DNA of 64,000 bases from Pseudorhodobacter wandonensis (GTDB taxonomy: Bacteria > Pseudomonadota > Alphaproteobacteria > Rhodobacterales > Rhodobacteraceae): positions 62,001 through 126,000 of the forward strand of contig NZ_LGHT01000041.1 in NCBI RefSeq assembly GCF_001202035.1, in the 5' to 3' direction. Numbering within the stretch: position 1 is the first letter of the stretch; each line of letters starts with the position of its first letter. The notes below the pieces were generated by a model. The model was not told the origin of the DNA and searched no databases. It saw only the letters and a program-made list of their open reading frames with translations. A program made the position numbers and the translations under genes. Positions 13,784 to 33,766 of this stretch are shown one piece after another.

Positions 13784-15286
13784 TCACAGATCCATCAACA
13801 ACCGCCGTGGATCTTCCAGCGCTTCTTTCACCCGCACGAGGAACGTCACCGCGCCTTTGCCGTCAACGATGCGGTGGTCATAGCTAAGCGCCAGATACAT
13901 CATCGGGCGGATCACGATTTCACCGTTCACCACGACCGGACGATCCTGGATTTTGTGCATCCCCAAGATACCCGATTGCGGTGGGTTCAGAATGGGCGAG
14001 GACATCAGCGAGCCGTAGACGCCGCCGTTCGAAATTGTGAACGTGCCGCCTTGCATTTCCGCCATCGACAGCTTGCCATCACGGGCGCGCAAGCCCTTTT
14101 CGGCAATCGCTTTTTCGATTTCAGCAAAGGACATGCTGTCGGCGTCGCGGATAACCGGCACAACAAGGCCCGAAGGTGTGCCAGCAGCCACGCCCATGTG
14201 GACGAAGTTCTTGTACACAATATCGGTGCCGTCGATTTCGGCGTTCACCTCGGGCACTTCTTTCAGCGCATGGCAGCAAGCCTTTGTAAAGAATGACATA
14301 AAGCCAAGGCGGACTTTGTGCTTTTTCTCAAACTGGTCTTTGTACTGGTTGCGCAGGGCCATCACCTCGGACATGTCCACCTCGTTATAGGTGGTCAGCA
14401 TGGCGGCGGTGTTCTGGCTTTCTTTCAGGCGGCGCGCGATGGTCTGGCGCAGCTTGGTCATTTTCACCCGCTCTTCACGGCTGGCGTCATCAGCGGCCAC
14501 AGGGGCGCGCGGAACCGACACGGGGGCTGCTGCGGCAGGCGCAGCGGCGGCCTTGGCCACGTCTTCTTTCATCACGCGACCATCGCGGCCAGAACCCTGA
14601 ACCTGATCGCGGTTCAAACCGGCCTCGGCCATCGCTTTCTTGGCCGAAGGCGCGTCTTCGACGTCCTTTGCACCGGTCGCAGCAGGGGCGGCAGGCGCTG
14701 CCGCCGCCGGTGCCGCAACAGCTGCACCGGCCGAGGCGCCTTCGGCCACAACGGCCAGCTTGGCATTGGCAGAAACGGTAGCGCCTTCGGCTGCAATAAT
14801 TTCAGTCAACACGCCAGCAACGGGGCTTGGAACCTCAACAGAAACCTTGTCGGTTTCCAGCTCGCACAGCATTTCATCTTGCGCGACCGTATCACCAACC
14901 TTTTTGAACCAGGTCGAAACGGTGGCCTCGGAAACGGATTCGCCAAGGGTTGGCACATTTACATCAGTCATTTTACCCTCTTCCGCGCTGGCCGGGGCCG
15001 ATGCGCCTTTGTCATGTGTGGTCGAGGCAGCCGCCCCGGTGTTATCCGCTTGCGCACCGATCTGGGCCAACAGGGCGGCTACGCCCACGGTGGTCCCTTC
15101 GGCAGCAACGATTTCGATCAAGGTGCCTGCCACAGGGCTTGGCACTTCGACCGTCACTTTATCGGTCTCCAGTTCGCACAGCATTTCATCGACTGCGACC
15201 CTGTCACCCAGTTTTTTGAACCAGGTTGCAACGGTCGCCTCGGTGACGCTTTCACCCAGAGTGGGAACCCGTACTTCAGTTGCCAT
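13784..15286 (-). CDS. sucB: 2-oxoglutarate dehydrogenase E2 (dihydrolipoamide succinyltransferase), two lipoyl domains
   Basis: A 500-residue E2 core enzyme. It has two N-terminal lipoyl domains in tandem, with lipoyl lysines at K43 and K147 (ETDKVTVEV and ETDKVSVEV). An Ala/Pro linker and a peripheral subunit-binding domain ([28 protein letters not shown]) follow, then the catalytic acyltransferase domain ending in [16 protein letters not shown] with the active-site His. Classical SucB has one lipoyl domain, so this is a duplication. Met106 begins the second domain and has AGAGG just upstream, so a shorter single-lipoyl form is possible. The start overlaps the sucA stop by 11 bases. Confidence 0.95.
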
Positions 15287-18251
15287 GCGTACGCGCCCCC
15301 GTCAGTGCATCGGCGATCAACGCCTCTTGTTCGGCCTTGTGGCGGCTTGCAAGGCCCGTCGCTGGCGAGGCCGAGGCAGCACGACCCGCATAGCGCGCAC
15401 GGCTGCTTTTGGCTTTGATCTTGCCCAACACCCATTCGATATTCGGTTCGACAAAGGTCCAATAGCCCTGATTTTTCGGCTCTTCCTGGCACCAGATCAC
15501 TTCGGCTTCTTTGAATCGTTCCAATTCCTTGACCATCGACATCGCAGGGAAAGGATAGAACTGCTCCAAACGCAGCAGATAGACGTCATCCAGACCCTGC
15601 TCATCGCGGGCGGCCAGCAAGTCATAATACACCTTGCCCGAACAAACGACGACGCGCTTGATCTTGTCATCCGCTTTCAGCTTCAGGTCGGAATGGCCCT
15701 TTTGCGCGTCATCCCACAAAACGCGGTGGAACGAGGAACCGGTGGTGAAATCATCGGCATCCGACACACACATCGGGTGGCGCAGCAGCGATTTCGGCGT
15801 CATCAAGATCAGCGGCTTGCGGAAATCGCGGTGCAGCTGACGGCGCAGAATGTGGAAATAGTTGGCCGGCGTCGAACAGTTAGCCACGATCCAGTTTTCA
15901 TTCGCCGACATCTGCAAGAACCGCTCGGGCCGCGCAGACGAATGCTCTGGCCCCTGCCCTTCATAGCCATGCGGCAACAGACAAACCAGACCCGACATCC
16001 GCAACCACTTGCTTTCGCCCGAGTTGATGAACTGGTCAAACATGATCTGTGCGCCGTTGGCAAAGTCACCAAACTGGGCTTCCCACAGGGTCAAAGCGTT
16101 CGGTTCCGACAGCGAATAGCCGTATTCAAAGCCAAGCACCGCATATTCCGACAGCATGGAATCGATCACCTCATAGCGTGCCTGGCCCGCTTTGATGTGG
16201 TTCAGCGGGTAATACCGCTCTTCGGTGGCTTGGTTGATAAAGGCCGAATGACGTTGGCTAAAGGTGCCGCGCGTACAATCCTGCCCTGACAAACGCACAG
16301 GGAAACCTTCGGTAACCAACGAACCAAAGGCAAGCGCCTCGGCTGTAGCCCAGTCAAAGCCGACGCCATCTGCGAACATCTTTTTCTTGGCGTCCAACTG
16401 GCGGCCAACGGTTTTGTGCAAATCAAACCCGTCCGGCACACGGGTCAGGCCCGCACCCACCTCGGCCATCGTTTTTTTGGTGATCGCGGTTTTACCTGCT
16501 TCATACTTTTCGCCTTCACGGCTCATGTTTTTCCAGCGGCCATCCAACCAGTCGGCCTTATTCGGCTTATAGTCTTTGCCCGCGTCGAATTCCTCGTTCA
16601 GATAGGCCTGAAACGCGGCTTTCATATCCTCGATCTCACCCTCGGGGATCAAACCATCCTTGACCAGACGCTCGGTATAAAGCGACAGCGTGGTCTTGTG
16701 CTTTTTGATCTGGGTGTACATCGCCGGGTTGGTGAACATCGGCTCGTCGCCTTCGTTGTGACCAAAGCGGCGATAGCAGAAAATATCCAGAACCACGTCT
16801 TTGTGGAACTTCTGGCGGAACTCGGTCGCCACTTTGGCGGCATGAACCACGGCTTCGGGGTCATCGCCATTCACGTGGAAAATCGGCGCTTCTACCACCA
16901 AGGCGTTATCGGTCGGATAGGGCGACGAGCGGCTGAAATGCGGCGCAGTGGTAAAGCCGATCTGGTTATTCACCACAATATGAATGGTGCCGCCGGTGCG
17001 GTGCCCGCGCAGCCCCGAAAGGCCAAAGCATTCCGCAACAACACCCTGTCCTGCAAAGGCCGCGTCGCCATGCAGCAGGATCGGCAGAACCTGATAGCGC
17101 TCGGTATCATTCAACTGGTCTTGCTTGGCGCGCACTTTGCCCAGCACAACAGGGTTCACAGCCTCAAGGTGGCTTGGGTTGGCCGTCAGTGACAGGTGCA
17201 CCGTATTGCCATCGAACGAACGGTCGCTTGACGCACCAAGGTGGTATTTCACATCGCCCGAGCCATCAACGTCTTCGGGCTTGAAGCTGCCGCCCTGAAA
17301 CTCGTTGAAAATCGCGCGATAGGGCTTTTTCATCACGTTCGACAGCACCGAAAGGCGGCCGCGGTGCGGCATACCGATCACGATTTCCTTAACGCCCAAC
17401 GCGCCACCGCGTTTGATGATCTGCTCCATCGCAGGGATCAGGCTTTCGCCCCCATCAAGGCCAAAACGCTTGGTCCCCATGTATTTCACATGCAGGAATT
17501 TCTCGAACCCTTCGGCCTCGACCAGCTTGTTCAAAATGGCTTTGCGGCCTTCGCGGGTAAAGGCGATTTCCTTGCCGTAACCTTCAATCCGTTCCTTCAG
17601 CCAGCTTGCCTGCTCGGGGTCGGAAATATGCATGTATTGCAGCGCGAATGTGCCGCAATAGGTGCGGCGCACGATCTCGAGGATCTGGCGCATCGACGCC
17701 ATCTGAAGGCCCAGCACGTTATCAATAAAGATCGGACGATCCATATCCTGCTCGGCGAACCCGTAGGATTTCGGGTCCAGCTCAGGGTGCGTGGTCGTAT
17801 CCTGCATTTTCAGCGGGTCCAGATCAGCGGCCAAGTGACCACGGATCCGGTAAGCGCGGATAATCATCAACGCGCGAATACTGTCCAGAACGGCGCGCTG
17901 CACTTGCGCATCCGACAGCGACACCCCTGCCTCGGCGGCCTTGGCGGCAATCTTTGCCCCCGCGGCTTTGCTTTCCTTGGCAGGCACAACCGGCCATTCG
18001 CCAGTCAACGCACCTGTCAAATCATCGCTTGGCACCGGCGGCCAATCGGCCCGCGCCCAGCTCGGGCCAGCTGCGGCAGCGGTCGCGACACGGTCCGCTT
18101 CACCCAACTCGGCAAAAAACGCGGCCCAGCTTGCATCAACCGATGCAGGGTCCTGCGCATGTTTTGCCGCAATCTGGTCGATGTATTCGGCATTGGCGCC
18201 ATCCAGATAGCTTTGGGCGCGGAATTGGGCGTTTGGGGATTGTTCGGTCAT
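15276..18251 (-). CDS. sucA: 2-oxoglutarate dehydrogenase E1 component
   Basis: A 991-residue thiamine diphosphate enzyme that decarboxylates 2-oxoglutarate and transfers the succinyl group to E2. The N terminus [12 protein letters not shown] resembles the short E2-binding segment of E1o. Further markers are [28 protein letters not shown], the thiamine diphosphate/Mg region ending in [17 protein letters not shown], and the C-terminal [16 protein letters not shown] and [20 protein letters not shown]. The length is slightly above the usual 930-990. It overlaps sucB by 11 bases and follows sucD with a gap of about 90 bases. Confidence 0.97.
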
Positions 18252-18344: not shown

Positions 18345-19229
18345 TTATGCCTTGATCGCGGCCATTACGGCCTCACCCAAATGGGCAGGGCTTTCGGCAA
18401 CCACAATACCTGCGGCTTTCATCGCTTCGATCTTGCTTTCGGCATCGCCTTTGCCACCGGCAACAATCGCGCCGGCATGGCCCATACGGCGGCCAGGAGG
18501 TGCCGTGCGCCCTGCGATAAAGCCGGCTGTTGGTTTCCAACGGCCTTTCTTACGCTCATCCGCAAGGAACTGCGCGGCTTCTTCTTCGGCAGAGCCGCCA
18601 ATCTCACCGATCATGATGATCGAATGGGTTTCAGGGTCGGCCAGGAACATCTCCAGAATATCAATATGCTCGGAACCCTTGATCGGGTCGCCACCAATAC
18701 CGACAGCCGAAGATTGGCCAAGACCCAGATCGGATGTCTGCTTAACGGCCTCATAGGTCAACGTGCCCGAGCGCGACACAACACCAACCGACCCGCGGCG
18801 GTGAATATGGCCCGGCATAATGCCGATCTTGCAAGCATCAGGTGTAATAACACCGGGGCAGTTTGGCCCGATCAGACGCGACTTCGACCCTTCCAAAGCA
18901 CGTTTCACACGCATCATGTCCAGCACCGGAATACCCTCGGTAATGCAAACAATCAGCTCCATCTCGGCGTCAATCGCCTCAAGGATCGAGTCGGCAGCAA
19001 ACGGCGGTGGCACATAGATCACCGAGGCATTCGCCTGCGTCAAAGCGCGGGCCTCATGCACCGAGTTGTAAACCGGCAGGTCCAAATGCGTGGTGCCGCC
19101 TTTGCCTGGTGTCACACCGCCAACCATTTTGGTGCCATAGGCAATGGCCTGCTCGGAATGGAATGTACCTTGGCTTCCCGTAAAACCTTGGCAGATCACA
19201 CGGGTATTTTCATTAACGAGAACGGCCAT
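18345..19229 (-). CDS. sucD: Succinyl-CoA ligase (ADP-forming) alpha subunit
   Basis: A 294-residue subunit of the TCA enzyme that couples succinyl-CoA cleavage to nucleoside triphosphate formation. The CoA-binding Rossmann fold opens with [18 protein letters not shown]. The ligase domain contains [20 protein letters not shown] and [16 protein letters not shown]. The phosphorylated His lies in [10 protein letters not shown] near residue 245. The length is normal. It lies in the suc operon between a small lipoprotein gene and sucA. Confidence 0.97.
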
Positions 19230-19558: not shown

Positions 19559-20752
19559 TTAGCCTTTGACCGCTTTCACGATCTTTTGCGCGCCGTCTTT
19601 CAGGTTTTCCGCGGCGATCACGTTCAGGCCGGAATTGTTGATGATGGCCTTGCCTTCTTCAACATTCGTGCCTTCCAAACGCACAACCAATGGCACCTTC
19701 AAACCGACTTCTTTCACAGCCGAAACCACGCCTTCGGCGATCACGTCACAGCGCATGATACCACCAAAGATGTTGACCAGAATGCCTTTGACGTTCGGGT
19801 CCGAGGTAATGATCTTGAACGCTTCGGTTACCTTTTCCTTGGTCGCACCGCCACCAACGTCAAGGAAGTTCGCAGGCTCGGCGCCGTACAGTTTGATGAT
19901 GTCCATCGTCGCCATCGCAAGGCCCGCACCGTTCACCATGCAACCAATTTCGCCGTCCAGCGCGATATAGTTCAGGTCAAACTTGCTGGCTGCCAGTTCT
20001 TTCGGGTCTTCTTCGGTCTCGTCGCGCAGCGCCATGATATCAGCGTGGCGGTACAGCGCGTTGCCGTCAAAGCCCATCTTGGCGTCAAGGCATTTCAGGT
20101 TGCCATCTGGCGTCACGATCAGCGGGTTGATTTCCAGCATCTCCATGTCTTTCTCAACGAAAGCCTTGTAGAGAATTTTGATCAGGCTGACGCATTGCTT
20201 AACCTGACCGCCGGTCAGGCCCAGCGCGAACGCAACCCGGCGACCGTGGAAATCAGACAGCCCCGAGGCCGGATCAACCGAGAAAGATACGATCTTTTCA
20301 GGGGTTTTCGCCGCAACTTCTTCAATATCCATGCCGCCTTCGGTCGAGGCAACGAATGAAATGCGGCTGGACTGGCGGTCAACCAACAGCGCCAGATAAA
20401 GTTCGCGCGCAATGTCGGAACCGTCTTCGATATAGATACGGTTCACTTGCTTGCCCGCAGGGCCGGTCTGATGCGTGATCAGGGTGCGGCCCAGCATCTG
20501 CTTGGCCATCTCGGCAGCTTCCGACACCGATTTTGCCAAACGCACGCCGCCTTTTTCGCCGGCTTCCGCCTCTTTAAAATGGCCCTTGCCACGGCCACCT
20601 GCATGGATCTGCGCTTTTACCACCCAAAGCGGGCCATCCATTTCGCCTGCTGCGGTTTTGGCCTCTTCCGCCTTCAGAACGACGCGACCATCGGACACGG
20701 GCGCCCCATAGCTGCGCAAAAGGGCTTTGGCTTGGTATTCGTGAATGTTCAT
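19559..20752 (-). CDS. sucC: Succinyl-CoA ligase (ADP-forming) beta subunit
   Basis: A 397-residue ATP-grasp subunit. [19 protein letters not shown] is the standard N terminus. Nucleotide binding uses [37 protein letters not shown] carries the metal-binding Glu/Asn, and [19 protein letters not shown] with [17 protein letters not shown] forms the C-terminal subunit-interaction domain. It is the first gene of the suc operon and lies just downstream of a pair of TGTGATCACA palindromes. Confidence 0.97.
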
Positions 20753-20856: not shown

Positions 20857-20887
20857 TGTGATCACAGCCTTGAAAAGTGTGATCACA
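20857..20887. promoter_or_regulatory. Paired TGTGATCACA operators upstream of sucC
   Basis: Two perfect 10-bp palindromes TGTGATCACA at 20857-20866 and 20878-20887, with centres exactly 21 bp apart (two helical turns), about 105 bases upstream of the sucC start. A pair with the same spacing lies upstream of sdhC. This looks like a cooperative binding site for a dimeric regulator; its identity is not known from this window. Confidence 0.75.
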
Positions 20888-20937: not shown

Positions 20938-21909
20938 TTATTCCGCCAAATCACCGGCCATTTTGGCCTGCTCTATTTCGGCCACCAACTTGCGCAACTT
21001 CCAATTCGGCACCACTTCCAAGGCGCGTCTGGCGGCCCGTTCGGCCAGTGTCAAATGCCCCTTGGCAACCGCAGCGGCCAGCAGGTTCAGCAAATAGGGC
21101 ACCGCCTGCCGCCGCGACCGCATCAACTGACGAAAGGCAAAAGGCGTCAGATCTCCGCGCATCCCCAGCAGCGTCACCTCTTTCAATACGCCCATGCGCT
21201 TCAACATCGGTGGTATCTTATGCGAGAAATGCGGCACCGGCAGCAACTGCACCGCCCCGCCCGCCATGCGCAAGGCGTGCAGCCTGTCGCCTTCGATCAA
21301 GGGGTCAAAGACCAGATAGGCACAACCGGCGCTTGCCACCCCCTCTGCCGCATCGTGGAATGGCGCCGACCAATCGCCAAGCCCGCGCCCATAGCGATAG
21401 CGCCGCTCAAACGGGGCAAGCCCACGGTCCAACGTCGATTGCGCAGCAAAGGCCAAAACGGTGCAGCCCGGCGCCAAAGGCGCAAAAGCCGCGGCTCCAA
21501 ACCCGCCCATCGACGCGCCATACATGGCGACATTCTCATATCCCGCAAACAGCCCCGCATCCCGCAGCGCCAGCAGTGCCGCCTTCAAATGCGGGCATTG
21601 AAACCAGTCTTTACGCTTGACCATCACCCCCAGTATCGCCCAGCCCTTGCGCCGCACCAACTGGCAGGCAAAGGGCATGCGGCCCTCGACATCGCGGTCG
21701 GATGCAAGGTTGTCAAAGGTCACCACCAAACGCTTTTGCCCCGGCAGATAGGCCAGCATGTGATGCTCGGTTTCAATGAAAAACGCGCCGGCCGTTTCAT
21801 GACACAGTGCCTGCAACGGCCCCATTCCGGGCGGCAACGGCGTTGCATCATTTGTTAGCAATGGCTGGGCAATCACAAGAAATGCGGTCCTGAAAGGGCA
21901 ATGGCCCAA
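20938..21909 (-). CDS. Alpha/beta-hydrolase-fold protein
   Basis: A 323-residue protein with a hydrolase-like core: LVVTFDNLASDRD (first strand and oxyanion-type region), then VAMYGASMGGFGAAAFAP, whose G-x-S-x-G gives the nucleophilic Ser. HFSHKIPPML could supply the catalytic His. The C-terminal 80 residues are helical and TPR-like (LTLAERAARRALEVVPNWKLR). The substrate is unknown. It may act on surface polysaccharide or a lipid ester, but nothing nearby tests this. The start is uncertain; an internal Met in GMGPLQALCHETAG would remove 28 residues of hydrophobic leader. Confidence 0.65.
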   Translation of the reverse strand: MGHCPFRTAFLVIAQPLLTNDATPLPPGMGPLQALCHETAGAFFIETEHHMLAYLPGQKRLVVTFDNLASDRDVEGRMPFACQLVRRKGWAILGVMVKRKDWFQCPHLKAALLALRDAGLFAGYENVAMYGASMGGFGAAAFAPLAPGCTVLAFAAQSTLDRGLAPFERRYRYGRGLGDWSAPFHDAAEGVASAGCAYLVFDPLIEGDRLHALRMAGGAVQLLPVPHFSHKIPPMLKRMGVLKEVTLLGMRGDLTPFAFRQLMRSRRQAVPYLLNLLAAAVAKGHLTLAERAARRALEVVPNWKLRKLVAEIEQAKMAGDLAE

Positions 21910-28002: not shown

Positions 28003-28734
28003 GTGACGCCGTTGTTCAAGACCTGCTGTTCCGTCCTTCTCGTCAGCCTTTTGCCGCTGCAAGCCCATGCCGATGGTGCGCAAGATTTTGTTACGGCAAA
28101 CATCGTCTCGACGCTTTATCACGAATTCGGCCATGCCCTGATCGACATCACAGACGCCCCCGTTTTGGGCCAGGAAGAAGATGCCGCCGATATTTTATCC
28201 GTCGTCTTGCTTGATGCCTTTTGGGAAGAGGATGCTGCGCAATCCATCACCGCCCTGACCGCCCTGTCGTTTGAACTTGCCGCGCAAGAAAACGAAGAAC
28301 CGGCCTATTGGGATGTTCACGGTCTTGATATGCAACGCTATTACAATCAGGTCTGCCTGTTCTACGGCGCAGACCCCGAAACCCGATCCGAGCTTGCTGC
28401 GGATTTTGAGCTGCCCGAGGAACGCGCGGACAGCTGCGTTGACGAATTCAATCTGGCAGAAAGCTCTTGGGCGGCTGTTCTGGAACCGCTGGAAACCCAA
28501 AAACCGTCCAAAACCATTCAGTTTAACGGCGAAACCTCGACCGAGGTCGGCGCGCTTTTGGCGGATGAAATACGCGACTTGAACGCAAGCTATCACCTGC
28601 CCAAACCAATCCTGGTGACTCTGAAACCCTGTGGTGAGGAAAACGCGTTTTACGACCCGGAAACCGCAACCATCACAATTTGCACCGAATATGTCGATTT
28701 TCTAAATCGTCAAGCCATTGCAAATGATTTGTGA
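28003..28734 (+). CDS. DUF4344 metallopeptidase-like exported protein
   Basis: A 243-residue protein with an N-terminal signal peptide (CCSVLLVSLLPLQAHA) and a zincin motif H40-E-F-G-H44 followed by ALIDITDAPVLGQEEDAAD. This is the DUF4344 family of putative periplasmic metallopeptidases. The C-terminal half contains several acidic residues and Cys pairs. A GTG start at 28003 is used; no strong ribosome site is visible, and the TTG at 28012 is an alternative. Its stop codon lies inside a TGTGATCACA palindrome. Confidence 0.8.
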   Translation: MTPLFKTCCSVLLVSLLPLQAHADGAQDFVTANIVSTLYHEFGHALIDITDAPVLGQEEDAADILSVVLLDAFWEEDAAQSITALTALSFELAAQENEEPAYWDVHGLDMQRYYNQVCLFYGADPETRSELAADFELPEERADSCVDEFNLAESSWAAVLEPLETQKPSKTIQFNGETSTEVGALLADEIRDLNASYHLPKPILVTLKPCGEENAFYDPETATITICTEYVDFLNRQAIANDL

Positions 28735-28739
28735 TCACA
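28730..28739. promoter_or_regulatory. Solo TGTGATCACA palindrome at the DUF4344 3' end
   Basis: A perfect 10-bp palindrome overlapping the DUF4344 stop codon (TGA within TGTGATCACA). It matches the half-sites of the paired operators at 20857-20887 and 28858-28888 and is about 130 bases upstream of the sdhC pair. Confidence 0.6.
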
Positions 28740-29036
28740 TAATGTTTGCGCTCACAGCAACAAGGGCGTGACAGCCTGCGCCGTGACCGCAAGACTTTGG
28801 TATTTGCCACGGCCCCGACTCTGCAACCAATGCCACAAGGCCTTTCCTGCCCAATATTGTGATCACGCGACATAATTTCGTGATCACAAACCCGATTTTT
28901 CGCACCTTCCGCCCGATAATTTAGTTGTTTTTTCTGCTACAAGGCGTGACTCAGGGCAAAAATACGTTATTCATAAGCAAAGCAGATAGCCTTAATACGG
29001 GCCCGTCCCGTAAGGCGCAGCCACGAGGGATTGATT
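28740..29036. other. Gene-free interval upstream of sdhC
   Basis: This 297-base gap has no gene I can support. It holds the sdhC operator pair at 28858-28888, an A+T-rich stretch around 28901-28940 that could be part of a promoter, and GAGGGA at 29025-29030 as the sdhC ribosome site. Confidence 0.6.
28858..28888. promoter_or_regulatory. Paired TGTGATCACA-like operators upstream of sdhC
   Basis: TGTGATCACG at 28858-28867 and CGTGATCACA at 28879-28888, each one base from the perfect palindrome, with centres 21 bp apart, exactly as upstream of sucC. They lie about 150 bases before the sdhC start. Confidence 0.75.
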
Positions 29037-29423
29037 ATGGCCGAAACAAAGCGGGTTGAACGCCCCCTTTCCCCCCACCTTCAAATTTACCGCCCGCAGC
29101 TTACCTCGATCACGTCAATCCTGACGCGCATAACGGGCAACGGGCTGATCGTCGGCACAATACTTGCGGTCTGGTGGTTGCTGGCCGCCGCAACCTCGCC
29201 CGAATATTTCGCCACGGCAAACGCCGTTGCGACCTCGTGGTTCGGCGATCTGGTCTTTACCTGCTCGCTTTGGGCGATCTGGTATCACTACCTTGCGGGC
29301 CTGCGTCACCTCTATTTCGATGCGGGCAAAGGCCTTGATATCCCCACCGCCGAAAAGCTCGGCTGGGCGGTTATCGGCGGCTCGGTCGTCTTGACCATCC
29401 TCACCATCATTCTTGTGCAATAA
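29037..29423 (+). CDS. sdhC: Succinate dehydrogenase cytochrome b556 subunit
   Basis: A 128-residue membrane anchor of complex II with three hydrophobic helices. The ubiquinone-site signature RPLSPHLQIYRPQLTSITSI is at the N terminus, and the haem His lies in HYLAGLRHLYFDAGKG. The ATG at 29037 is used because GAGGGA at 29025-29030 is six bases upstream; a TTG at 29031 is too close to it. First gene of the sdh operon, with the operator pair upstream. Confidence 0.95.
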   Translation: MAETKRVERPLSPHLQIYRPQLTSITSILTRITGNGLIVGTILAVWWLLAAATSPEYFATANAVATSWFGDLVFTCSLWAIWYHYLAGLRHLYFDAGKGLDIPTAEKLGWAVIGGSVVLTILTIILVQ

Positions 29424-29815: not shown

Positions 29816-31618
29816 ATGACCGCATATGAATATGAAACCCATGACTATGATGTTGTTGTGGTGGGGGCTGGCGGTGCCGGCCTGCGTGCAACGCTTGGCA
29901 TGGCCGAACAAGGCCTGCGCACCGCTTGCGTGACCAAGGTTTTCCCGACCCGCTCGCACACCGTTGCGGCCCAAGGCGGCATCGCGGCGTCCCTGTCGAA
30001 CATGGGCCCCGACAACTGGCAGTGGCACATGTATGACACTGTCAAAGGCTCTGACTGGCTGGGCGACACCGATGCGATGGAATACCTCGCCCGCGAAGCG
30101 CCCAAGGCGGTGTATGAGCTTGAACACTACGGCGTGCCATTCTCGCGCACCGAAGAGGGCAAGATTTACCAGCGCCCCTTCGGTGGCCATACCACCGAAT
30201 TTGGTGAAGGCCCGCCCGTACAACGTACCTGCGCCGCAGCCGACCGTACCGGCCACGCCATTTTGCACACGCTTTACGGCCAATCACTGAAAAACAACGC
30301 CGAATTCTTTATCGAATATTTCGCGCTTGATCTGATCATCACCGATGGTCGCTGCACCGGTATCGTCGCGTGGAAACTCGACGATGGCACGATCCATGTG
30401 TTCAACGCCAAAATGGTCGTTCTGGCCACCGGCGGTTACGGTCGCGCCTATTTCAGCGCCACCTCGGCCCATACCTGCACCGGCGACGGTAACGGCATGG
30501 TCGCCCGCGCTGGTCTGCCGCTGCAAGATATGGAATTCGTGCAGTTCCACCCCACCGGCATCTACGGTTCGGGCTGCCTGATCACCGAAGGCGCGCGCGG
30601 CGAAGGCGGCTATCTGACCAACTCGGAAGGCGAGCGTTTCATGGAACGCTACGCCCCGACCTACAAAGATCTGGCCAGCCGCGATGTTGTATCGCGCTGC
30701 ATGACCATTGAAATCCGCGAAGGCCGCGGCGTTGGCCCGAATAAGGACCACATCCACCTGAACCTGAACCACCTGCCCAAGGCGACGCTCGATTTGCGCC
30801 TGCCGGGCATTTCGGAATCCGCCCGCATCTTCGCCGGCGTCGATCTGCAAAAAGAGCCGATCCCCGTTATCCCGACCGTGCATTACAACATGGGCGGCAT
30901 TCCGACCAACTACTTTGGCGAGGTGCTGAACCCCACCGCCAAGAACCCCGACGCCATCTTCCCCGGCCTGATGGCTGTGGGCGAGGCAGGCTGCGCATCC
31001 GTTCACGGCGCCAACCGCCTCGGCTCGAACTCCCTGATCGACCTCGTGGTATTCGGCCGTGCCGCCGCCATCCGCGCGGGCGAGATTGTGAACCCCAAGG
31101 AACGCAACGCCCCTGTGAACAAGGTCGAAGTTGACAAAGCCTTGGGTCGTTTCGACGCCGTGCGCCACGCCAACGGCTCGGTGCCCACCGCCGATCTGCG
31201 CCTTGAAATGCAAAAAACCATGCAGGCCGATGCGGCCGTGTTCCGCACCGATAAAACGCTGGCCGAAGGTGTCGTGAAAATGACCGCCATCGCCGCGAAA
31301 ATGGATGACCTCAAGGTCACAGACCGCTCGATGGTCTGGAACTCGGATCTGATGGAAACGCTGGAACTGGGCAACCTGATGCCCAACGCCCTTGCCACCA
31401 TCGTCGCCGCCGAGGCCCGCAAGGAATCGCGCGGCGCCCATGCGCACGAAGACTACCCCGATCGTGACGACAAAAACTGGCGCGTCCACAGCCTTGCGCA
31501 TGTGGTCGGCAACAAGGTCACACTGTCCACACGCCCCGTCCACATGGACCCGCTGACCAAACACGAAGACGGCGGGATCGATCTGAAAAAGATCGCCCCC
31601 AAAGCGCGGGTGTACTGA
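29816..31618 (+). CDS. sdhA: Succinate dehydrogenase flavoprotein subunit
   Basis: A 600-residue FAD subunit that oxidises succinate to fumarate. The dinucleotide fold is [16 protein letters not shown] (residues 13-28). The covalent FAD attachment is His48 in [12 protein letters not shown]. The active-site region is [20 protein letters not shown], and the capping region has [12 protein letters not shown] and [19 protein letters not shown]. The length is normal. The TGA shares its last A with the ATG of the next gene. Confidence 0.98.
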
Positions 31619-32228: not shown

Positions 32229-32975
32229 GTGGCACCCGAACCCAACACAATCGACCGCGCCCAGGTAAACCGCTTTTTGCGGCGCAAGGGGTTAACGGCC
32301 AATGCCGACAAATCCCGTGCCGAGCATCTGCAATGCTTTGGCCTTGCCCCCGATGTCGTGTTTGATGTTGGCGTCGATACCGGCACCCCGATGCTGTATC
32401 GCGCCTTTCCCAACGCACGCTTTGCCCTGATCGACCCGCGCCCCGAATCCCGCACGGCCCTGACCGGCGCTGATGCCCCGCGTGATGCGCAGTTCTTTGA
32501 AACCGCACTTGGGGCGACCAATGGCACGCTTACCCTGACCATCCCGCATTCCGCCAAAGGCGAACAAGGCGCAATGGCCAGCCTGCGCCACCGCACCGAC
32601 CGCCTGTCCGCCAAGTTCACCAAAACTGAAACCCGTCAGGTTCCCGTCACCACGCTCGACAGTATCGCCGCCCAATTTCCCGGCCGCGTCGGCCTTAAAA
32701 TCGATACCGAAGGGTATGAGGATGACGTGCTGCAAGGCGCCACGCAAACCCTGCTGCGCACCGATTTTGTGATCCTAGAAATGTCGCTGACCCAGCGTTT
32801 CGCTGGCCTCGCCCCGCCTTCACAGCTCATCACCCGCCTTGCTGCCGCCGGCCTTGAATTCCGCGATGTCCTGCGGATGACAGGCGATGGCAAAGGCGGC
32901 GGCGCGCCCCGCCTGATGGACGTTCTTTTCACCCGGTGGCCCGCCCATGCCCCGGCCCCCACAACCGTTTCTTAA
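32229..32975 (+). CDS. FkbM family methyltransferase
   Basis: A 248-residue SAM-dependent methyltransferase of the FkbM type. [15 protein letters not shown] is the SAM-binding motif I, with a Gly-rich loop altered to [15 protein letters not shown] is the following acidic strand. [20 protein letters not shown] and DFVILEMSL match the FkbM C-terminal motifs. FkbM members modify sugars or small molecules. A GTG start at 32229 is used. It lies between the second lipoprotein and sdhB, an unusual place for this family. Confidence 0.85.
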
Positions 32976-32989
32976 TAGGAGAGGGACCC

Positions 32990-33766
32990 ATGGTTCAATT
33001 CACCCTGCCCAAAAACTCCACCATCCGCACTGGCAAAACCTGGCCAAAACCCAGCGGCACCAACATCCGCAAATTCAGCATCTATCGCTGGACGCCCGAT
33101 GATGGCGAAAACCCGCGGGTTGATACCTATTTCGTCGATATGGATACTTGCGGGCCCATGGTCCTCGACGCCCTGATCAAAATCAAGAATGAGATCGACC
33201 CAACCCTCACCTTCCGCCGGTCCTGCCGCGAAGGTATCTGCGGCTCTTGCGCGATGAACATCGGCGGCATCAACACTCTGGCCTGCATTTACGGGCTGGA
33301 TGAGGTAAAGGGCGATGTCAAAATCTACCCGCTGCCGCACATGCCCGTGGTCCGCGACCTGATCCCCGATCTTAACCACTTCTACGCCCAGCATGCCTCG
33401 ATCATGCCATGGCTGGAAACCAAAACCAACACCCCCGCCAAGGAATGGAAGCAATCGATTGAAGATCGTGAAAAGCTTGACGGGCTCTATGAATGCGTGA
33501 TGTGCGCCTGCTGCTCCACCTCTTGCCCCAGCTACTGGTGGAACTCTGATCGCTACCTCGGGCCGGCCGCTTTGCTGCACGCCTATCGCTGGATCATCGA
33601 CTCACGCGATGAGGCAACGCCAGAACGTCTCGACGACCTCGAAGACCCGTTCAAACTCTACCGTTGCCACACCATTATGAACTGCGCCAAAACCTGCCCC
33701 AAAGGGCTGAACCCGGCCAAAGCGATTGCCGAGATCAAAAAGAAAATGGTCGAACGCGTCGTCTAA
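32990..33766 (+). CDS. sdhB: Succinate dehydrogenase iron-sulphur subunit
   Basis: A 258-residue subunit with three Fe-S clusters. A plant-type ferredoxin domain has [16 protein letters not shown] and the later LAC for [2Fe-2S]. The C-terminal domain has [16 protein letters not shown] and [17 protein letters not shown] for the [4Fe-4S] and [3Fe-4S] clusters. The start at 32990 ([13 protein letters not shown]) is preceded by AGGAGAGGG. Last gene of the sdh operon. Confidence 0.97.

Follow-up and report, generated by a model that had tools for sequence, protein, structure and literature searches.

The two pairs of palindromes that precede the sucC and sdhC operons of Pseudorhodobacter wandonensis are very probably the operators of this organism's orthologue of AkgR, a regulator of the GntR family. 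The stretch of DNA under investigation, hereafter referred to as the window, comprises 64,000 nucleotides of contig NZ_LGHT01000041.1. The AkgR regulon itself is already known from R. sphaeroides. Added here are the strict pairing of the sites at 20 or 21 bp, the joint absence of the pairs and the regulator, and a single site at the regulator's own gene. The new part is a proposal, namely that the fixed pair would serve activation and the single site autoregulation.

Palindrome pairs in the window

Exact copies of TGTGATCACA number three in the window, as compared with 0.02 expected, and none of 100 shuffled versions reaches that figure. The whole genome (3,887,441 bases in 45 contigs) contains the same three copies only. 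This copy number is not the product of chance. The sites and the genes that accompany them are as follows.

13784-15286, minus strand: sucB (E2), probable, assigned by position only; overlaps the end of sucA
15276-18251, minus strand: sucA, 2-oxoglutarate dehydrogenase E1 (Pfam OxoGdeHyase_C and others)
18345-19229, minus strand: sucD, succinyl-CoA ligase alpha (Pfam CoA_binding, Ligase_CoA)
19559-20752, minus strand: sucC, succinyl-CoA ligase beta, first gene after the pair (Pfam ATP-grasp_2, Ligase_CoA)
20857-20866, no strand: operator proximal to sucC, TGTGATCACA, exact match
20878-20887, no strand: distal operator before sucC, an exact TGTGATCACA spaced 21 bp from the proximal copy
28730-28739, no strand: solitary copy upstream of sdhC, TGTGATCACA, exact match
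28858-28867, no strand: distal operator of the sdhC pair, TGTGATCACG, one mismatch
28879-28888, no strand: proximal operator of the sdhC pair, CGTGATCACA, one mismatch
29037-29423, plus strand: sdhC, first gene of the succinate dehydrogenase operon (Pfam Sdh_cyt)
29816-31618, plus strand: sdhA (Pfam FAD_binding_2, Succ_DH_flav_C)
32990-33766, plus strand: sdhB (Pfam Fer2_3 in the open reading frame 32936-33766)

The original prediction called for two perfect palindromes upstream of sucC, two near-perfect ones before sdhC, and an identical centre-to-centre spacing of 21 bp. All three points hold, in that both sucC sites are exact, the two sdhC sites each deviate at one position, and the measured spacing is 21 bp in both pairs. 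The core, GTGATCAC, which is the motif of the AkgR regulon, is exact in all four paired sites. The additional perfect copy reported at 28730 is indeed exact, with no further exact copy genome-wide, but it is not strictly intergenic because it overlaps the stop codon of the open reading frame at 28003-28734. The downstream genes had been named as sucC and sdhC, and the Pfam matches agree with both.

When one mismatch to TGTGATCACA is allowed, the window contains five copies versus 1.65 expected, and thus the two one-mismatch copies, taken singly, mean little. At the same stringency the whole genome has 80 such places as against 10 for a reversed-pattern control, which is a poor control because the reversed pattern contains CTAG. 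Pairs spaced by 21 bp with no more than three mismatches in total occur at two places in the whole genome, and there is no third. On another contig (G000:C24:87536-87896), four copies of TGTGATCACC follow one another in exact 117-bp steps and probably represent a coding tandem repeat rather than operators.

With respect to the probable sucB, its relative in Rhodobacter aestuarii also comes after sucA. Two other open reading frames were observed at these operons. One, on the plus strand at 32229-32975, is of the FkbM methyltransferase type and lies between sdhA and sdhB. The second, on the minus strand at 20938-21909, encodes 323 residues and is situated between mdh and sucC; it has neither a Pfam or NCBIfam match nor a relative in the 117 other regions that were fetched. 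The region separating mdh from sucC has the appearance of an insertion hotspot.

Conservation of the pairs in related genera

The family sample consisted of 120 genomes, one per genus, with SucC located genome by genome. G067 (no SucC match) and G099 (a 37% relative only) were left out of the counts, such that 118 remain, namely the window genome and 117 others from which the upstream DNA was obtained. Partial SucC matches within the 118 are those of G062, G133, and G144. Pairs are present in both G067 and G099 according to the genome-wide pair search, for which 44 genomes were chosen by hand.

A sucC pair was scored when the best pair matched at 17 or more of its 20 positions, the spacing being free to vary from 10 to 44. 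Such a pair is found in 106 of the 118 genomes, and its spacing is 21 bp in 97 of them and 20 bp in nine, with no other value observed. An exact GTGATCAC forms the core of both sites in 105 of these 106 genomes, and both ten-mers are perfect in 74. The sdhC gene was found in 93 of the 118 regions, to which the sdhC pair counts refer, and the final count allowed for spacings of 20 or 21 bp only. A pair precedes sdhC in 84 of the 93 regions (74 at 21 bp and 10 at 20 bp), with both cores exact in 80 and both ten-mers perfect in 22. The sdhC pair is thus often the weaker one, as it is in the window. When the spacing was left free, 82 of these 84 pairs were again placed at 20 or 21 bp, and another word was picked in G000 (LacI-like) and in G076. 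The check proposed at the outset, for conservation of the paired site in relatives, thus came out in favor of the prediction at sucC as well as at sdhC. Regulator-bearing genomes without a good sdhC pair are G113 and G135, where there is none, and G020, G070, G088, and G124, where it is degenerate or single.

Between genomes the flanks are ∼31% identical and the proximal site is 96% identical. The distance from the proximal edge of the pair to the sucC ATG is 95-165 bp (median 108), whereas the mdh-sucC gap ranges from 127 to 9918 bp in the 106 genomes. Because the former is kept while the latter varies, the pair belongs to sucC and not to mdh. An extra solitary copy, at varying distance, is observed in 22 of 85 sdhC upstream regions. 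In the sucC upstream region of G147 (C8:374318-374367), three operators are positioned in a row in 21-bp steps.

A 21-bp pair with three mismatches or fewer was found in 31 of 37 genomes of the same family versus 1 of 24 others of the class. In a further sample, 4 of 284 class genomes outside the family have one pair each, and the five family members included in it all have two. A GTGATCAC pair at 21 bp was also noted in a genome outside the family (L301 in G268, positions 992-1020), where it lies between TonB-receptor-like and GntR-FCD-like genes. This strict pairing persists across most of the related genera sampled and has the look of a design rule open to testing.

Exact copies of the palindrome were surveyed in 40 genomes chosen by hand, with matches listed for 19 of the 38 genomes that had any and, for G031, seven of its ten listed. 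Among the matches listed, 16 regulator-bearing genomes have 68 exact copies, of which sucC accounts for 24, sdhC for 12, and the regulator gene for 9, with the remaining 23 at other positions. A random genome-wide distribution of the palindrome, which would have spoken against a dedicated regulator, is not what is seen, given that 45 of the 68 copies among the matches listed are at one of these three places. Copies elsewhere amount to 1.4 per regulator-bearing genome among the matches listed, and five regulator-less genomes have six exact copies (0, 0, 1, 2, and 3). These numbers are about the same, and hence the recurrent sites form three loci.

The probable AkgR orthologue and its gene

The candidate regulator, L080, is a protein of 221 residues with GntR and FCD domains. 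Its gene (G000:C38:31865-32527) is on a contig other than that of the window. The window genome has 18 FCD matches and 30 GntR matches (27 over the cut-off), none of which lies on the window's contig, C41, and the possibility of a regulator gene adjoining sdh was accordingly rejected for this genome. L080 was singled out because its relatives come after sdhB in three genomes, and the presence/absence profiling covered this one of the 18 FCD matches.

With orthologues defined by an identity of at least 62% to L080, 108 of the 120 family genomes have one. An orthologue is present in 105 of the 106 genomes with a sucC pair versus 1 of the 12 without (Fisher p ∼1e-13, a statistic that ignores kinship). 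A tree of Mdh and SucC from 109 genomes, the support for which is poor, gives seven changes of absence by parsimony. There are two exceptions. In G133, an assembly of 320 contigs, both pairs are present and the orthologue was not found, and in G148 the pair is located between mdh and sucA with the regulator adjoining the sdh genes. The genome-wide pair search returned no pairs in 11 regulator-less genomes without a sucC pair and at least one pair in each of the other 33.

In 46 of 105 other genomes, no more than 30 kb separate the regulator gene from sucC. The regulator gene is downstream of sucC in 43 of these, mostly at 8-13 kb, which is about where the suc operon ends. Cereibacter johrii, a relative of R. 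sphaeroides and the sole 100% PufA match in a set of 80 loci, has an orthologue of 89% identity immediately after sdhB, and pairs are present at both sdhC and sucC. The order along its contig is akgR, sdhB, sdhA, sdhD, sdhC, pair, mdh, pair, sucC, sucD. The placement of akgR next to sdhB fits the locus numbers RSP_0981 and RSP_0974-6 (sdh).

RSP_0981 of R. sphaeroides was reportedly named AkgR by Imam et al. in 2015, as an activator of TCA genes. The excerpts of PMC4344238 give RSP_0967-6, RSP_0974-6, and RSP_0965-62 as predicted targets of RSP_0981, described as a GntR regulator, the enzymes in question being succinyl-CoA synthetase, 2-oxoglutarate dehydrogenase, and succinate dehydrogenase. 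Likewise, an excerpt of PMC6365646 places GTGATCAC among the sites of the activator AkgR. As far as these excerpts go, that regulon and the one described here have in common a GntR regulator, sites before sucCDAB and sdhCDAB, and GTGATCAC; they differ in that the regulator of the window genome is encoded on another contig, not beside sdh, and has no site at its own start. Excerpts of papers that name AkgR together with CceR do not treat spacing. AkgR was the candidate suggested originally, and within the limits of sequence evidence that choice is correct. It is backed by the published motif and targets, and also by the distribution and the position of the orthologue together with the site at its own gene.

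The own-gene site was examined upstream of akgR in 40 of the 107 other orthologues, picked by hand over the range of identity. One GTGATCAC is found at the start of the gene in 28 of the 40, and it is 11-23 bp upstream of the assigned start in 25 of these 28. For G149, G033, and G085, the akgR start assigned by script is probably too early. The site is present in R. capsulatus, R. aestuarii, and G148, and it is absent at akgR of both the window genome and C. johrii. Indeed, none of the 18 FCD loci of the window genome contains GTGATCAC, and the idea that one of these genes has an autoregulatory site upstream was therefore rejected. When the 40 are ranked by score against the window-genome protein, the top eight are all among the 12 orthologues that lack the own-gene site. 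In many relatives a single dimer positioned over the start of akgR would repress this gene.

Proposed mechanism and alternatives

For the sdhC operon a promoter could be predicted at a set distance from the pair.

GTGACT at 28946-28951, 16 bp, TATTCA at 28968-28973, plus strand: predicted sdhC promoter, with a conserved GTGAC element

In 81 sdhC promoters aligned on the best -35-like word, the GTGAC element begins 62 or 63 bp past the proximal centre in 54, and a TA-containing element occurs 22 bp after the conserved GTGAC. Relative to the predicted sdhC start, the centre of the proximal operator would be at approximately -96 and that of the distal operator near -118, a location that suits an activator bound upstream and not a repressor. 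A sucC promoter at a fixed distance from the pair was not located, the motif that was tried being hardly commoner than in shuffles (57 of 106 upstream regions versus 41%), and thus the distance to the start was estimated for sdhC only.

A second palindrome lies close to the solitary copy.

28743-28756, no strand: LacI-type palindrome TGTTTGCGCTCACA, a weak 12/14 match to TGTTAGCGCTAACA and possibly a site for CceR, with 3 bp between it and the solitary copy

The LacI regulator RSP_1663 of R. sphaeroides bears the name CceR. It is predicted, in excerpts of PMC4344238, to act on mdh and sdh through the motif GTT N6-8 AAC. The consensus TGTTAGCGCTAACA was built in this analysis to fit that published motif, and TGTTTGCGCTCACA breaks one arm of its palindrome. 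Palindromes of this type (at least 12/14) were found in 9 of 85 sdhC upstream regions versus 0 in shuffles, and a conserved CceR site before sdhC was rejected given so small a share. CceR differs from AkgR in both its site and its family.

The model of AkgR has a mean pLDDT of 86 and matches GntR-FCD structures. Among proteins with a solved structure, the nearest in both sequence (E 1.9e-20) and fold (TM 0.76, 28% identity) is McbR/YncC of E. coli (PDB 4p9f). The McbR/YncC regulon is not known to be related. The chains of Atu1419 superimpose on the model with TM values of 0.50-0.57. Note that Asn 142, His 146, His 189, and Asp 211 of AkgR are invariant in 38 aligned orthologues (38 of 41 proteins entered the alignment). 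From their equal spacing to Asn 137/His 141 and His 192/His 214 of Atu1419 they may be regarded as putative metal ligands. Asp 211 occupies the position where Atu1419 has its third histidine, and thus the effector pocket of AkgR may differ.

According to the excerpts of PMC7797058, Atu1419 is a VanR-type FCD repressor of Agrobacterium fabrum that binds as one dimer per 10-bp palindrome, which fits the 10-bp TGTGATCACA. Features common to the two systems, on the same excerpts, are the GntR-FCD fold, the 10-bp palindrome per dimer, more than one site, and action on the regulator's own gene. Atu1419 differs in its palindrome, ATGTATACAT, in being a repressor, in the 190 bp between its sites, in its tetrameric state, and in its three-histidine metal site. 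The excerpts of PMC6365646 also describe PS417_07240 of Pseudomonas simiae, a GntR-like regulator of deoxyribonate genes, for which the predicted site is again GTGATCAC. In those excerpts it differs from AkgR, to which it is 32% identical, by the single copy reported and by the pathway.

With AkgR as the regulator, one dimer would bind to each 10-bp palindrome via its two winged helices, and two dimers might occupy the same face of the DNA as cooperatively bound neighbors. The 21-bp spacing corresponds to two helix turns and fits cooperative dimers. The dimers bound to a pair would assist RNA polymerase in the way of a class I activator bound upstream, and as an outcome succinyl-CoA ligase/2-oxoglutarate dehydrogenase and succinate dehydrogenase would be raised together. 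The sign of regulation, like the cooperativity and the dimer binding, is something that we infer. As a tentative but serious possibility, two dimers 20-21 bp apart would activate sucC and sdhC, and one dimer over the start codon would repress akgR. The recurrent regulon across the family would then consist of just these three loci, forming a closed homeostat for the segment from 2-oxoglutarate to fumarate, and the lineage of the window genome would have opened the loop by losing the autoregulatory site.

It could also be that the same regulator holds each pair as one preformed tetramer, a dimer of dimers, and reaches the copy at 28730 by looping, as does Atu1419. The excerpts of PMC7797058 describe a tetramer of Atu1419 that bridges palindromes 190 bp apart, and this protein also came up when the AkgR model was compared with solved structures. 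Solitary extra sites, moreover, occur in the 22 of 85 sdhC upstream regions mentioned above. We regard the arrangement as unlikely, however, for the best fold match is McbR/YncC, with a TM of 0.76 against 0.50-0.57 for the Atu1419 chains, the palindromes bound by Atu1419 are held ∼10 nm apart in those excerpts as opposed to 7 nm for 21 bp, and the solitary site has no conserved position. It is less probable still that the two sites are independent and non-cooperative, with the second copy adding affinity only and the spacing inherited. Although single sites seem to be enough at akgR, the spacing is 20 or 21 bp in 106 of 106 sucC pairs, and in 82 of 84 sdhC pairs in the free scan, with flanks that have diverged to 31% identity. 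Indel drift would have spread the spacing, which argues against mere inheritance.

Assignment of the sites to a CRP/FNR-type or another GntR regulator, in place of AkgR, appears highly improbable. Operators of the CRP/FNR type have the form TGTGA-N6-TCACA or TTGAT-N4-ATCAA, and the TGTGA...TCACA of the palindrome resembles a CRP site without a spacer. It is precisely the 6-bp spacer of CRP sites that is missing, however, and with the half-sites of TGTGATCACA abutting, a CRP/FNR-type site was rejected. As for other GntR proteins, the GntR-FCD protein encoded beside the GTGATCAC pair outside the family (L301) is 29% identical to AkgR, such that the half-site, and perhaps the pairing, may be common to a wider GntR clade. 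Relatives of L064, also of the GntR-FCD type, are encoded ∼4-6 kb past sdhB in four genomes (G020, G024, G076, and G133), but no GTGATCAC lies near them there. The nearest GntR paralogue of the candidate, L084, was rejected because it is missing from the 1e-30 matches of several pair-bearing genomes, among them G009, G014, G020, and G024.

With the pairs assigned to AkgR, a regulator known from a single laboratory species is extended, from sequence alone, to most of the 118 family genera examined. A sharp rule, namely a pair at 20-21 bp, together with a matching single-site case, makes the cooperativity, the sign of regulation, and the effector directly testable. Control of the TCA cycle in this family may thereby become readable off genomes.
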